This document shows, piece after piece, positions 53,533 to 57,347 of a stretch of 64,000 nucleotides of DNA. Within the stretch, counting starts at the first letter, position 1. The number at the start of each line of letters is the position of its first letter. The stretch covers positions 1,726,001 to 1,790,000 of the forward strand of contig NZ_OU015430.1 in NCBI RefSeq assembly GCF_907164845.1, given 5' to 3'. Under the pieces are notes generated by a model. The model worked only from the letters and a program-made list of their open reading frames with translations, was not told where the DNA came from and did no database searches. The stretch comes from Lysobacter luteus (GTDB lineage: Bacteria; Pseudomonadota; Gammaproteobacteria; Xanthomonadales; Xanthomonadaceae). The position numbers and the translations under genes were made by a program.

Positions 53533-53781
53533 ATGGAACAGCAACGCAGGATCAAGCAGTTCGTACTCCAGAACTTCCTGTTCTCCGAAGACGAGGATGC
53601 ACTGGGCGACGCGGACTCGCTGATCCGCGGCGGCATCGTCGATTCGACCGGTATCCACGAGCTGATCCTTTTCCTTGAGGAGAGCTACCAGATCGCGGTG
53701 TCGCCTGACGAAATGGTCCCGGCCAACTTCGACACGATCGACTCGGTCAACCGCTTCGTCACACGCAAGCTCGCCGGCTGA
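53533..53781 (+). CDS. Acyl carrier protein of the EPS locus
   Basis: An 82-residue acidic ACP. The 4'-phosphopantetheine attachment Ser38 sits in GGIVDSTGI, with helices II and III following (ELILFLEESYQIAVSPDEM). The ATG at 53533 has AGGGGAAG upstream. First gene of a four-gene cassette with ligase, NadE-like and GNAT genes. Divergent from the sugar dehydrogenase; the 156-base gap shows no distinct promoter. Confidence 0.88.
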   Translation: MEQQRRIKQFVLQNFLFSEDEDALGDADSLIRGGIVDSTGIHELILFLEESYQIAVSPDEMVPANFDTIDSVNRFVTRKLAG

Positions 53782-53788
53782 CCGCGAC

Positions 53789-55294
53789 GTGGACTGGCTC
53801 GGCGCGCATGTGGCGGAACACGCGGCGGCTACGCCCGACCGCGAGGCGATCGTCGATGGCGAGCGGCGAACCCGTTATGCCGCGCTCTGGGCACAGGCGC
53901 AGGCGTTCGCCGCCCTGCTGCGTGTCCGCGGGCTGGTCGCGGGCGACCGCGTGGCGATCGTGCTGCCCAACCGGACCGAAGCTGTGGTGGCGTGGTACGG
54001 CACCTGGCTGGCGGGCGGCGTGGTGGTGGCGCTCAACGTGCAGGCGCGTGCGCGCGACCTGGGTCCGTGGATCGCCCACTGCGGCGCGCGGATCGTGGTG
54101 CACGAACGCGACGACGCCGACACGGCGCAGGCACTGTGCGAGTTGGAGGACCGGCCGTTCGCGATTGCGCTGGATCCGGACGGTCCGATCGACACGGATG
54201 CACCCGACTTCTCCGATATGCCGGTCGCAGCTCCTGCGCCCGACGTCCTCGCGCTGATCCTGTACACCTCCGGCACCACGGGCGCGCCCAAGGGCGTGAT
54301 GCTCAGCCACGGCAACCTGCTGGCGAATGCAATGTCCGTCATCGCCTACCTGCAACTCGGCCCCGGCGACAGCGTGCTCAGCGTGCTGCCGTTCTATTAC
54401 GCGTACGGCGCGTCGGTACTGCATACCCACTTGGCCAGCGGCGCGCGGGTCGTGCTGGCGCCCAACCTGGTCTTCCCGCCGCTGATCACCGCCGCGATCG
54501 CCCGCGAGCGCGTTACCGGGTTTTCGGGGGTTCCGTCCACCTTCGCTCTGCTGCTGGACAAGGGTGCGCTGCACGACCACGACCTGTCGTCGCTGCGTTA
54601 CCTGACCCAGGCCGGCGGTGCGATGCCGGTCGCGCTCACCAACCGCCTGCGCGCTGCGCTGCCCGGGGTCGATCTGTTCGTGATGTACGGCCAGACCGAG
54701 GCGACCTCGCGGCTCACCTGGTTACCGCCCGCCCAGCTGGACCGCAAGGCCGGTTCGGTCGGCGTGCCGATCGACGGCGTGCGCGTGCGCATCGTCCGCG
54801 AGGACGGCACCGGGGCCGGCGTCGGACAGGATGGCGAGGTGCAGGTGAGCGGCCCCAACGTCATGCAGGGCTACTGGAACAACCCGGACGCGACCGCTGC
54901 GGTGTTGCGCGACGGCTGGCTCCGCACCGGCGACATCGGCTACCTCGATGCCGACGGCTTCCTGTTCCTGGCCGGGCGCCGCAGCGACATGATCAAGACA
55001 GGCGCGCACCGCGTTCACCCTGGCGACATCGAACAGGCGATCGCCGAAATCGACGGCGTGATCGAGGCGGCGGTCGTTGGCGTGGACGACGCGTTGCTCG
55101 GCCAGGTCATCAAGGCCTACGTGGTCACCGCAACGCTGCCCGAGCGCGGGGTGGAGCGGGTCAAGGCGCATTGCCGCGCGCGCCTGGCCCCGTACAAGGT
55201 GCCGCGCCACGTCGAGTTCGTCACCGCACTCCCCCGAACCGCGTCGGGCAAGGTCCGCCGCGCCTCACTCACCGAGCAACAGGCAACCCCATGA
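53789..55294 (+). CDS. AMP-forming acyl-ACP/CoA ligase (XrtA-locus type)
   Basis: A 501-residue ANL-superfamily enzyme from the GTG at 53789, 7 bases after the ACP stop. A signature LYTSGTTGAPKGVMLSHGN lies near residue 160, followed by MYGQTEATSR, GWLRTGDIGYLDADGFLFLAGRRSDMIK and the catalytic Lys in PRTASGKVRR. It likely loads a carboxylate on to the adjacent ACP (inference from adjacency). Resembles the acyl-CoA ligase of exosortase-A loci (TIGR03098 type). Confidence 0.87.
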   Translation: MDWLGAHVAEHAAATPDREAIVDGERRTRYAALWAQAQAFAALLRVRGLVAGDRVAIVLPNRTEAVVAWYGTWLAGGVVVALNVQARARDLGPWIAHCGARIVVHERDDADTAQALCELEDRPFAIALDPDGPIDTDAPDFSDMPVAAPAPDVLALILYTSGTTGAPKGVMLSHGNLLANAMSVIAYLQLGPGDSVLSVLPFYYAYGASVLHTHLASGARVVLAPNLVFPPLITAAIARERVTGFSGVPSTFALLLDKGALHDHDLSSLRYLTQAGGAMPVALTNRLRAALPGVDLFVMYGQTEATSRLTWLPPAQLDRKAGSVGVPIDGVRVRIVREDGTGAGVGQDGEVQVSGPNVMQGYWNNPDATAAVLRDGWLRTGDIGYLDADGFLFLAGRRSDMIKTGAHRVHPGDIEQAIAEIDGVIEAAVVGVDDALLGQVIKAYVVTATLPERGVERVKAHCRARLAPYKVPRHVEFVTALPRTASGKVRRASLTEQQATP

Positions 55295-56298
55295 GCCGAC
55301 TGGACTGGACCGTGCTGGACATCGACCTGGAGGCCGAGGCCGACCGCATCGCCGCGCGGCTGCGCGACATCACCGCACGCGAGCTGCACCGCCGCGGCCT
55401 GGTGGTCGCGATCTCGGGCGGCATCGATAGTTCCGTGAGCGCCGCGCTGGCGGTACGCGCACTCGGCCCCGACCGGGTGTTCACGCTGATCCTGCCCGAG
55501 CGCGACTCCGACGACGACAGCGCCGAGCGGGCACGGCTGCTGGCGACCCACCTGGGCGTGCGCACCGAAACGATCGACATCGCGCCCACGCTGGCCGCGA
55601 TCGGCTGCTACCGGGCTCGCGACGAAGCCGTGCGCCGGGCACTGCCCGAGTATGCCGACGGCTGGAAGATGAAGATCGTCATCGATGGCGGTACCGAAGG
55701 GCGGATCAACCGCTTCCGGCTCATCGCCGAGTCCCCCGACGGCCACCGCCACGAGCGCGACCTGGGCCTGCAGGAGTACCTCACGATCGTCGCGGCCACC
55801 AACTTCAAGCAGCGCATCCGCAAGACGCTCGAATATTTCCATGCGGACCGGCTCAACTACGCAGTGGTCGGCACGCCCAACCGGGTCGAGTACGACCAGG
55901 GTTTCTTCGTCAAGAACGGCGACGGCTCGGCCGACGTCAAGCCGATCGCTCACCTGTACAAGACCCAGGTCTACGCGATGGCGCGGCACTTGGGGCTGCC
56001 CGAGCGGGTCTGCGCGGCGCAGCCGACCACCGACACCTACAGCCTCAGCCAGGGCCAGGACGAGTTCTACTACGGCCTGCCCTACCGGCCGATGGACCTT
56101 GCGCTGTGGGCGCTCGACAACGGGCGCCCCGCCGCCGACCTGGCCGAGGCGCTCGGCGTTACCGCACCACAGGCCGCCGCCATCTACGAGGACCTGCGCA
56201 ACAAGCGCCGCACCACCCGCTACCTGCATCGCGCGCCGGTACTGGTCGGCGAAGCGACAGCGGCAATGGCGGTGGCGGACATCCCGGTGCCGGCATGA
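55291..56298 (+). CDS. NAD synthase-like ATP pyrophosphatase
   Basis: A 335-residue protein of the adenine nucleotide alpha-hydrolase fold. SGGIDSSVSAALA (residues 42-54) is the PP loop. It shares overall layout with ammonia-dependent NadE, but the later region (AAQPTTDTYSLSQGQDEFYYGL) differs from the usual NadE PT-ADLxxx block, and it lies in an EPS cassette, so NAD synthesis is unlikely. It may adenylate and amidate another acid. ATGA overlap with the ligase and with the GNAT gene. Confidence 0.78.
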   Translation: MSRLDWTVLDIDLEAEADRIAARLRDITARELHRRGLVVAISGGIDSSVSAALAVRALGPDRVFTLILPERDSDDDSAERARLLATHLGVRTETIDIAPTLAAIGCYRARDEAVRRALPEYADGWKMKIVIDGGTEGRINRFRLIAESPDGHRHERDLGLQEYLTIVAATNFKQRIRKTLEYFHADRLNYAVVGTPNRVEYDQGFFVKNGDGSADVKPIAHLYKTQVYAMARHLGLPERVCAAQPTTDTYSLSQGQDEFYYGLPYRPMDLALWALDNGRPAADLAEALGVTAPQAAAIYEDLRNKRRTTRYLHRAPVLVGEATAAMAVADIPVPA

Positions 56299-57347
56299 AC
56301 GTGGCCGTGCAGGCGCCGCTGTACACGGCGCAGGCGGGCGACGTGCTGCGCCACCGCGACACGGTACTGGCGATCTGGCGTGACAACCTGGGCGACGCCG
56401 CTGCCATGCGCGCCAAGTACGACTGGTTCTACCTTCGACCCGGCAACGGGGCGCCGCTGCTGTGGCTGCTCCGGCATGAGCCGACCGGTGACCTGGTCGG
56501 GGCCTGTTCGGCCGGCCGTCGGCGGATGTCGTGGCGTGGCCGTGGAATACGCGCCGGCGTACTGGTGGACCTGGCGGTCACGCCCGAACACCGCTCGCTA
56601 GGGCCGGCCCTGATCCTGCAGGAAGGACTCGCCGAGGCCGGCAGGCGCGAACTGGACCTGTTGTACGGTTTCCCGAACCCGCGCGCGGCACCGGTGTTCA
56701 AGCGGATCGGCTACCGCCACCTGGCAACGATCGTGCGCCACGCGCGGGCGCTGCGGCACGCGGGCTATTTCCGCCGTCAGATGCCGGCGTGGCTGGCCTA
56801 TCCCGCCGGCGCGGTGGTCGACCTGCTGACCCATGCGGTGGACCTGTTGCGTAGCCTGGGGGGTCCAAGGTTGCAGGCGCACTGGGTTGACCAGGCCGAT
56901 CCACGCATGGACGCACTCTGGCGCGATGCGCCGCATGGCCACGGACTGCTCGCGGTGCGCGACGCCGACCATGTGCGCTGGCGGTTCGACCAGTGTCCGC
57001 TCCAGCGCACCCGCCACCTTCTGCTCGACGCGCCTGATGGAACGCTGTCGGGCTGGTTCGCGACCCAGGTCGCGGACGGCATGCTGCATGTACGCGACTT
57101 CTGGACCCGCGACGCTGCCGAAGGCGTCGGGCGCCATTACATCGATGCGTTGATCCGCGCCGCACGTGCCGCCGGGCATGCGGCGGTGTCGGTGGAACTG
57201 GCCGCGCCCGAGTCGCACCTGGCGGGCTGGCGCTCGCGTGGATTCGTGGAGCGCAGCCGGCGGCCGGTGTTCGGGCGCTGGAGCTGGCCCGACCCGGGTG
57301 GGAGCGACCCGGCGCTGTTCCTGACGTCCGCCGACGAAGACGAATGA
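56295..57347 (+). CDS. Tandem GNAT (FemAB-like) acyltransferase
   Basis: A 350-residue protein that reads as two GNAT folds. The first has VDLAVTPEHRSLGPALILQEGL and LLYGFPNPRAAPVFKRIGYR near residue 90-150; the second has RWRFDQCPLQRTRHLLL and a helix-strand unit ending ESHLAGWRSRGFVERS. This is the Fem-like arrangement for transfer of acyl or aminoacyl groups. With the ACP, ligase and NadE-like enzyme it forms one translationally coupled unit. Substrate unknown. Confidence 0.78.
   Translation: MNVAVQAPLYTAQAGDVLRHRDTVLAIWRDNLGDAAAMRAKYDWFYLRPGNGAPLLWLLRHEPTGDLVGACSAGRRRMSWRGRGIRAGVLVDLAVTPEHRSLGPALILQEGLAEAGRRELDLLYGFPNPRAAPVFKRIGYRHLATIVRHARALRHAGYFRRQMPAWLAYPAGAVVDLLTHAVDLLRSLGGPRLQAHWVDQADPRMDALWRDAPHGHGLLAVRDADHVRWRFDQCPLQRTRHLLLDAPDGTLSGWFATQVADGMLHVRDFWTRDAAEGVGRHYIDALIRAARAAGHAAVSVELAAPESHLAGWRSRGFVERSRRPVFGRWSWPDPGGSDPALFLTSADEDE

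Follow-up and report, generated by a model that had tools for sequence, protein, structure and literature searches.

What does a protein with the fold of NAD synthase do beside an acyl carrier protein (ACP), inside a locus for exopolysaccharide? The question is raised by a 64,000-nucleotide stretch of the Lysobacter luteus genome (contig NZ_OU015430.1 of assembly GCF_907164845.1, positions 1,726,001 to 1,790,000; here called the window), in which four plus-strand genes at 53533-57347 encode an ACP, an AMP-forming ligase, a NadE-like protein and a tandem-GNAT protein. A reading made from the sequence alone had described this cassette; its coordinates are confirmed, as are the 7-base gap between the ACP stop and the ligase and the two ATGA overlaps in which the NadE-like and GNAT genes start. 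The class II amidotransferase (AsnB) that it placed 2.3 kb upstream of the ACP is also there, and belongs to the module, being found in the same 13 of 60 genomes. We class the module with the carrier-protein systems that activate and transfer acyl groups, among which its NadE-fold member is unusual; what we establish for it is co-occurrence, co-localisation, intact active-site motifs and predicted folds. That AsnB, ACP, ligase, NadE-like protein and GNAT form a five-part biosynthetic module, in which an amide-bearing acyl group is built and transferred, is given an even chance.

Distribution of the Module

The phyletic profiles cover 60 genomes, the window's own and 59 relatives, at thresholds of E ≤ 1e-20 for the NadE-like protein, E ≤ 1e-150 for AsnB, E ≤ 1e-100 for the ligase, and E ≤ 1e-6 for both the GNAT and the ACP. 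The NadE-like protein, AsnB and the ligase are each present in 13 of the 60, always the identical genomes; the GNAT is present in 12, every one NadE-like-positive, and the sole positive genome without a window-type GNAT (G049) carries another GNAT type. The ACP is found in 16 genomes: the 13 module genomes at E ≤ 1.1e-14, and three others more weakly at E ≥ 1.6e-9. The AsnB and ligase thresholds were picked to part close from distant homologues, and the equality of these sets with the NadE-like set is therefore partly a matter of choice; the GNAT and ACP matches separate without threshold tuning. With genome relatedness ignored, the hypergeometric chance of such overlap is 9e-12 for the GNAT and 2e-13 for AsnB or the ligase.

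Within the genus of the window, five of ten genomes (the window counted) hold all five genes and five hold none at these thresholds. Three of the four other positive congeners have AsnB 15-16 kb and the best GNAT match 25-32 kb from the NadE-like gene; in the fourth (G008) AsnB and the GNAT lie on other contigs and still co-occur. A second, more distant GNAT stands beside the NadE-like gene in G001. The chain-length gene TIGR03007, taken at E ≤ 1e-40, occurs in 25 of the 60 genomes (21 above the model's cut-off), comprising all 13 module genomes (11 above cut-off) and 12 genomes without the module; within these 25 the GNAT association has a p of about 2.5e-6. Genomes with XrtA-type exopolysaccharide loci may thus have the module or lack it.

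Gene Neighbourhoods

Neighbourhoods were compared over 109 loci picked by their NadE-like gene: the window, 25 genome stretches, 80 named contigs (the best 80 of 586 confirmed candidates) and three plasmid loci. Within 7 kb of the NadE-like gene an ACP is encoded in 104 loci, a ligase in 101, AsnB in 87 and a GNAT of the GNAT2 group in 56. The loci include same-genome pairs (L036/L070 and L038/L073); once duplicates and loci whose flank on either side fell short of 7 kb were set aside, 70 remained, and there the counts are 70 for the ACP, 66 for the ligase, 62 for AsnB and 38 for GNAT2, with all three core partners in 58. AsnB is missing within 7 kb in L038-L042, L051, L063 and L079, of which L042 has it about 8 kb away.

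At least seven arrangements of the core genes, and a few further variants, occur over the 109 loci. ASNB-ACP-LIG-NADE is found in 55 loci, ASNB-LIG-ACP-NADE in 11, NADE-ASNB-LIG-ACP in five, ACP'-ASNB'-LIG-NADE in three, LIG'-ACP-ASNB-NADE in two, and ACP-LIG-NADE-ASNB in one, with one more having AsnB reversed in this last order; an eighth order, ACP-LIG-ASNB-NADE-GNAT, is seen in Azospirillum, where A. thermophilum has the ACP, ligase, asnB, nadE and GNAT genes contiguous behind glycosyltransferases and a deacetylase. Togetherness that is kept through such rearrangement is strong evidence of joint function. For comparison, the 14-15 kb surrounding a true NadE gene was searched at the same thresholds in 18 of the 26 genomes tested for NadE, and none of these 18 control loci holds a module gene; chance neighbourhood is rejected on the strength of these loci together with the phyletic profiles. 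That the four genes of the cassette make one unit, as the sequence-only reading had it, is borne out by the common profile, the shuffled gene orders and the empty controls; the search for the block in other genomes that it called for finds homologues that co-occur and co-localise rather than lie scattered.

Several neighbourhoods hold further genes. Some 4-7 kb downstream of the NadE-like gene, L042 and L043 encode another ligase and ACP on the opposite strand, which suggests that a single exopolysaccharide locus can host two carrier-protein pathways. L098:5015-6094 (-) and its cluster mates encode a FabH-like ketoacyl synthase III near the module, with AsnB and the ACP on the opposite strand. 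In genomes outside the window's class, an NRPS-like (nonribosomal peptide synthetase-like) protein of about 870-910 aa with AMP-binding and thioesterase regions (L045:2500-5112, L052:6681-9416, and L050) is encoded directly upstream of NADE-ASNB-LIG-ACP.

NadE-like Protein

The NadE-like protein is a 335 aa N-type ATP pyrophosphatase with an ATG start (55291-56298, +; NF002048 / PRK00876); it scores 465.5 bits against the NCBIfam model NF002048, named 'NAD(+) synthase' (cut-off 313), and is a member of that subfamily. Housekeeping NAD synthesis was rejected as its role, because another NadE above the TIGR00552 cut-off is present in 26 of 26 genomes tested; the window's own genome has a separate full NadE at G000:C1:2350824-2351573, within a 548-aa open frame (219.7 bits). 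The name of NF002048 is inherited, and the protein is a paralogue that stands beside another NadE in these 26 genomes and inside a module of ACP, ligase and AsnB.

The alignment compares 17 true NadEs with 108 NadE-like family members, namely P0004 and 107 sequences taken from the loci without removal of duplicates; most of the 17 look glutamine-dependent by their large open frames, and the comparison with ammonia-dependent NadE rests on alignments with PDB chains. The segment at residues 99-170 has 72-73 residues in all 108 family members and 24-28 in all 17 true NadEs, so that the family has an insertion of 44-49 residues that is absent from every true NadE. In the window's protein the insertion covers about residues 106-158 (55606-55764, +) and, by the secondary structure of the AlphaFold2 (AF2) model and the alignment, forms a helix and three strands; the model has a predicted local distance difference test (pLDDT) score of 88.5. 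The PP-loop, R175, T195, E200, D215, K224 and K305 are invariant in the 108 members, and K208 and T246 each occur in 107; 103 of the 108 have H313, to which nothing corresponds in 16 of the 17 true NadEs, while the equivalent of the NadE C-terminal His is not conserved in the family. Judged by the database annotation of the E. coli and B. subtilis enzymes, from which we take the site assignments, the family retains the residues equivalent to those with which ammonia-dependent NadE binds ATP and Mg, and most of those for deamido-NAD. The best solved-structure matches are ammonia-dependent NadE and, second, the NMN synthetase of Francisella.

The protein does differ from true NadE, as the sequence-only reading had supposed; the difference is not in its later region, which is close to ammonia-dependent NadE, but mainly in the mid-protein insertion. 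The check on the NAD site that it proposed gives a site that is largely retained, yet in no tested genome is this the sole NAD synthase. We read the family as having its adenylating chemistry intact and the region around the far end of the substrate apparently rebuilt. It could still be argued that the protein is a second NAD (or NMN) synthase, present by chance or for cofactor supply: the NCBIfam name above cut-off, the ATP, Mg and deamido-NAD positions as we assign them, and the solved NMN synthetase of this fold would all fit. The other NadE in 26 of 26 genomes, the locking of the gene to ACP, ligase and AsnB, and the insertion missing from all 17 true NadEs speak against this, and we consider it highly improbable.

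Spread and Annotation

Of 398 genomes sampled from the phylum, 15 match NF002048, as does one of 14 named control genomes (Methanosarcina acetivorans); on plasmids the model is matched in 116 records, 76 of them Sinorhizobium, and the phage records searched gave no match. Carriers of the module include records labelled Gamma-, Beta-, Alpha- and Deltaproteobacteria, and metagenome-assembled genomes named Myxococcota and Gemmatimonadaceae. Sinorhizobium meliloti RCAM1750 has an asnB-acp-ligase-nadE operon on a pSymB-type plasmid, and pSymB of strain 1021 has the NadE-like gene too; about 11-12 kb downstream of the operon come genes for a tandem-GNAT-like protein and a HemK-type methyltransferase, the HemK-type copy being 12.5 kb from the NadE-like gene. 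In Mesorhizobium ciceri the tandem-GNAT-like and HemK-type pair is directly beside the operon. On the S. meliloti plasmid, L138:27386-28507 and 29455-31906 hold the tandem-GNAT-like gene and further open reading frames (ORFs) matching its profile; these lie partly under a coding sequence annotated as a lipopolysaccharide biosynthesis protein, and may be pieces or paralogues.

In Azospirillum brasilense, the accessible passages of PMC7646526 describe a third NadE isoform that lacks a glutaminase domain, was detected in extracts and is left unexplained there. Since an A. brasilense plasmid locus (L178) carries the module, we infer, from the locus rather than from a locus tag, that this third NadE probably belongs to the NadE-like family, and the module offers a plausible context for it. 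Genomes with several NAD synthetase genes are mentioned in PMC3376133, whose available text draws no link to an ACP or AsnB; SMb20484 of S. meliloti is given as a sugar transporter in the available parts of PMC4961836 and PMC4581636. No published description of the gene set was found in the open-access literature, which is weak evidence of absence.

The module corrects a recurrent misannotation, a second 'NAD synthase', that is able to distort metabolic models. If the proposed function is true, many 'nadE' labels in bacteria with two or three nadE genes (S. meliloti pSymB, Azospirillum) would denote this pathway; the presence of the module in S. meliloti and A. brasilense, both model organisms, makes it testable with existing genetics.

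ACP and AMP-forming Ligase

The ACP is an 82 aa protein (53533-53781, +) with a predicted phosphopantetheine site at Ser38 in GIVDSTGI (codon 53644-53646). It has no Pfam match at E 0.01 and no NCBIfam model above cut-off; the best model is ACP_for_OlsHI, at 55.8 of 130 bits. It resembles solved peptidyl carrier proteins, including PigG, PltL and DltC chains, and both D37 and the Ser38 that the sequence-only reading had picked out are present in 103 of 103 aligned family ACPs. The predicted identity as a carrier protein thus draws on weak NCBIfam matches, similarity to solved carriers and the conserved DSTG motif. An ornithine-lipid link, suggested by the name of the best model, was not adopted for the module, because that pathway, according to the accessible text of PMC12493201, relies on an alpha/beta hydrolase together with a GH3-like enzyme.

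The ligase is a 501 aa protein with a GTG start (53789-55294, +) and is the predicted loader of the ACP; Pfam matches it to the AMP-binding family PF00501 (297.2 bits) and to PF13193. Its closest solved chains are fatty-acyl- and feruloyl-CoA synthetases, NRPS adenylation (A) domains and malonyl-CoA synthetases. Among 98 aligned family ligases Arg308 of the acyl pocket is invariant (98/98), Gly207 is conserved, and Tyr206 is conserved with Phe in two. Alignment with the solved chains puts R308 four residues behind the Glu of motif A5, which we take to be pocket position 331 in NRPS numbering; an Arg in the pocket hints that the substrate bears a further carboxylate or a polar group. Where NRPS A domains have the Asp that binds the amino acid, presumably Asp235, the 98 ligases have Asp in 23 (the FDYG type, which includes S. 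meliloti), Ser in 38 and Ala in 29, the window's among them; substrates may therefore differ between lineages.

AsnB and HemK/PrmC-type Methyltransferases

AsnB is a 653 aa AsnB-type class II (glutamine) amidotransferase with a GTG start (49262-51223, +) and is the fifth member of the module. It scores 506.1 bits against TIGR01536 (cut-off 267.1), which places it in the asparagine synthase family, and has both Cys2 and SGGLDS; its translation starts VCG, with GTG read as Met. Across 84 AsnB sequences SGGLDS is present in all and the Cys-Gly start in 82; one of the other two starts Met-Cys-Ala, and one is a call without a true start. A SAM (S-adenosylmethionine) methyltransferase gene (51240-52169, +) follows directly behind AsnB as an accessory, and is conserved in a cluster spanning 14 loci.

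It has also to be asked whether AsnB and the ACP serve one pathway or two half-pathways toward one polymer, in which a WbpS-like AsnB and the NadE-like protein would make uronamides on nucleotide- or lipid-linked sugars, and ACP, ligase and GNAT would separately N-acylate. An XrtA-cluster-specific AsnB-type model exists (TIGR03108), and PMC3684757 and PMC9012009, in their accessible parts, give two or three asnB/wbpS genes for XrtA-type clusters. Such a division is nevertheless rather unlikely: ligase, AsnB and the NadE-like protein go together in an identical set of 13 of the 60 genomes, including those that have AsnB at a distance of 15-16 kb, and the quartet stays together in S. meliloti, where no sugar-polymer genes are annotated adjoining it.

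Enzymes of the HemK/PrmC family methylate the side-chain amide nitrogen of glutamine. An extra gene of this family, often between the ligase and NadE-like genes, is present in the fetched flanks of 30 of 112 loci (the 109 and three Azospirillum/Mesorhizobium plasmid loci; the S. meliloti loci L141 and L142 were not counted), one of the 30 being a fragment; it is present in none of the 18 true-NadE control loci. A separate PrmC, at 250-293 bits, is found in all eight tested genomes that carry the HemK-type gene. The L116 protein scores 207.6 bits (cut-off 199.1), and those of S. meliloti and M. ciceri are above the hemK_fam cut-off and below that of PrmC. NPPY is kept in 22 of 29 readable HemK-type proteins; the activity of the APPY, SPPY and IPPY proteins (L084, L085, L090, L102, L108, L110 and L120) may be lost or changed. 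Because the family N-methylates amides, a primary carboxamide is the simplest reading of the AsnB/NadE-like product. The window's own locus has no match to a HemK/PrmC-type gene, so its product need not be methylated; the locus carries a different methyltransferase, the one at 51240-52169.

The methyltransferases also bear on whether AsnB and the NadE-like protein use an amine other than ammonia, such that a short peptide-like or amino-acid amide is built and then transferred. The FDYG motif in 23 of 98 ligases, with Asp at what we take to be the NRPS Asp235 position, and the NRPS-like AMP-binding and thioesterase protein beside the quartet in L045 and L052 would suit such a product. The window's ligase has Ala at that position, AsnB keeps its glutaminase Cys-Gly start in 82 of 84, and the HemK-type genes point to a primary amide, which together make this decidedly unlikely.

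Tandem-GNAT Transferase

The last gene of the cassette (56295-57347, +) encodes a 350 aa tandem-GNAT N-acyltransferase, the predicted transferase of the module. Its match to PF00583 is weak (28.5 bits); the AF2 model, built from an alignment of 29, is confident (mean pLDDT 94.1) and in Foldseek matches solved tandem-GNAT chains over nearly its whole length. The nearest solved folds are Eis-like tandem GNATs and N-myristoyltransferases, with template-modelling (TM) scores of about 0.5-0.65 and identities of 8-16%, meaning a common predicted fold at low identity. The two GNAT folds of the sequence-only reading are therefore supported by the model, and its likeness to Fem enzymes is not: no Fem protein is among the best 50 of 1209 Foldseek matches, and the protein matches no NCBIfam model, FemAB TIGR03019 included, and only GNAT Pfam models at E 0.01. 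Membership of the Fem family is thus unsupported by family models or by the best 50 of 1209 fold matches.

A true XrtA FemAB protein and its homologues are present in a few other loci. Aligned to the window's GNAT by hhalign, the Rhizobiaceae-type hypothetical protein gives 96% and the L118-type GNAT 99.6%, against 0.6% for FemAB and 1.7% for the L039 type. Genes of the GNAT or Fem type fall into five groups, GNAT2 and FemAB included, and 80 of the 109 loci have such a gene in the flanks that were fetched. An acyl-CoA donor is not implied for the GNAT, because an ACP is encoded beside it.

Exopolysaccharide Locus

The cassette stands inside an XrtA-type exopolysaccharide locus at 25162-60775. 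One end holds export, chain-length, tyrosine kinase and outer-membrane genes (25162-29466, +), including an export protein at 198.3 bits against TIGR03027 (cut-off 180) and a chain-length protein at 333.3 bits against TIGR03007 (278.85); TIGR03018 and TIGR03016 are matched below cut-off. At the far end is the polyprenyl glycosylphosphotransferase EpsB_2 (59333-60775, -; TIGR03013, 566.3 bits, cut-off 393.35). The exosortase model TIGR02602 has no match in the window's own genome; perhaps export here needs no exosortase, or else the enzyme is one that the model fails to detect. Convergent with the cassette is a polysaccharide deacetylase-like gene (57371-58282, -; start approximate; PF01522, E 2.9e-15), which could be the provider of the acceptor amine; in 36 of 109 loci an ORF homologous to it lies no more than 5 kb from the NadE-like gene. 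The window's glycosyltransferase at 46276-47514 and EpsB_2 also have homologues within 10 kb, in clusters that cover 27 and 25 loci, respectively, and the Azospirillum and Shinella module loci are among glycosyltransferases.

This setting would be secondary if the module made a diffusible small molecule, as the core operons of S. meliloti and Nitratireductor without adjoining annotated polysaccharide genes, and the NRPS-like neighbour in some genomes, might suggest. We regard this as unlikely, given the XrtA chain-length gene in all 13 module genomes of the 60, the glycosyltransferase surroundings in Azospirillum and Shinella, the two clusters of 27 and 25 loci, the GNAT/Fem genes in 80 of 109 loci and the deacetylase ORFs that recur in 38 of 109.

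Proposed Pathway

Activation, amidation and transfer of an acyl group, as first suggested from the sequence alone, is a sensible reading that is strengthened by the extra HemK/PrmC-type gene. In the pathway that we propose, the ligase would adenylate a small acid with a second polar or anionic group, to which the invariant Arg308 points, and load it on the ACP. AsnB, with ammonia derived from glutamine, and/or the NadE-like protein, converting ATP to AMP and pyrophosphate, would then turn the carboxylate(s) into a carboxamide; the insertion of the latter may reshape the site where NadE holds its dinucleotide, and perhaps serves as a dock for the ACP. A HemK/PrmC-type enzyme would methylate the amide nitrogen in some lineages. 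The tandem GNAT (elsewhere FemAB or another GNAT) would finally take the completed acyl group off the ACP and pass it to an amine, and the acceptor in this genome would most likely be an amino sugar of the surrounding XrtA-type exopolysaccharide. The fuller proposal, that an enzyme of NAD synthase fold has been recruited with a glutamine amidotransferase to amidate an ACP-bound acyl group and so supply a sometimes N-methylated, undescribed unit to a surface polysaccharide, is a serious possibility that falls somewhat short of an even chance. It predicts a new enzyme chemistry, the NadE fold in a carrier-protein pathway, and a new substituent of a polymer or lipid.

A number of points weigh against this proposal. 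The pathway does not account for two amide-forming enzymes; the retained NadE site would equally fit a nicotinate-like substrate, and the ligases fall in at least two pocket types, so that their substrates may differ. Fetched flanks without a GNAT or Fem gene are found in 29 of the 109 loci, seven of the 29 HemK-type proteins have lost the Asn of NPPY (to Ala, Ser or Ile), and the core quartets of S. meliloti and Nitratireductor adjoin no annotated polysaccharide genes, in a gene table that is incomplete. Distance-matrix (mirror-tree) correlations among four of the proteins are modest, 0.49-0.79, and are not used as proof. The Luteimonas loci L087, L088, L089 and L091 have no ligase within 7 kb.

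These four Luteimonas loci keep the ACP, AsnB, NadE-like and GNAT genes; a ligase elsewhere may serve them.

Relation to Known Systems

The accessory genes of XrtA clusters (TIGR03098, TIGR03108 and TIGR03019) belong to the same kind of locus and to the same AMP-ligase and AsnB superfamilies, and FemAB is found near some modules. The window's ligase, however, reaches 362.7 of the 592.35 bits required by TIGR03098 (ligase_PEP_1), that of S. meliloti 456.7, and the window's AsnB 445.3 of 816.9 bits for the XrtA amidotransferase TIGR03108, all below cut-off; the NadE-like gene is not among the XrtA accessory models. The TIGR03098 ligase has a neighbouring pyridoxal phosphate-dependent decarboxylase.

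D-alanylation by DltA/DltC and pairs of the PltL/PigG type are alike in that a free carrier is presumably charged by a free AMP-forming ligase. The window's ACP scores only 20.3 of 68 bits against the DltC model, and the window's ligase has Ala in place of the amino-acid Asp; we know of no amidotransferases in Dlt systems. The synthesis of N-acetylglutaminylglutamine amide uses an AsnB-type amidotransferase with a GNAT, as the module does, and yields a primary carboxamide, as is proposed for the module, but AsnB of the window reaches only 354.1 of 570.1 bits against its model TIGR03104, and the synthesis is not known to involve an ACP, a ligase or a NadE-like protein.

Other Genes of the Locus

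Between the methyltransferase and the ACP, at 52147-53422 (-), is a gene that by eye looks like a pyrroloquinoline quinone-type sugar dehydrogenase, and its homologues recur at a similar place in a cluster spanning 24 loci. Further upstream, 43051-45159 encodes a 702-aa fusion of a Gfo/Idh/MocA oxidoreductase with an NAD-dependent epimerase/dehydratase.

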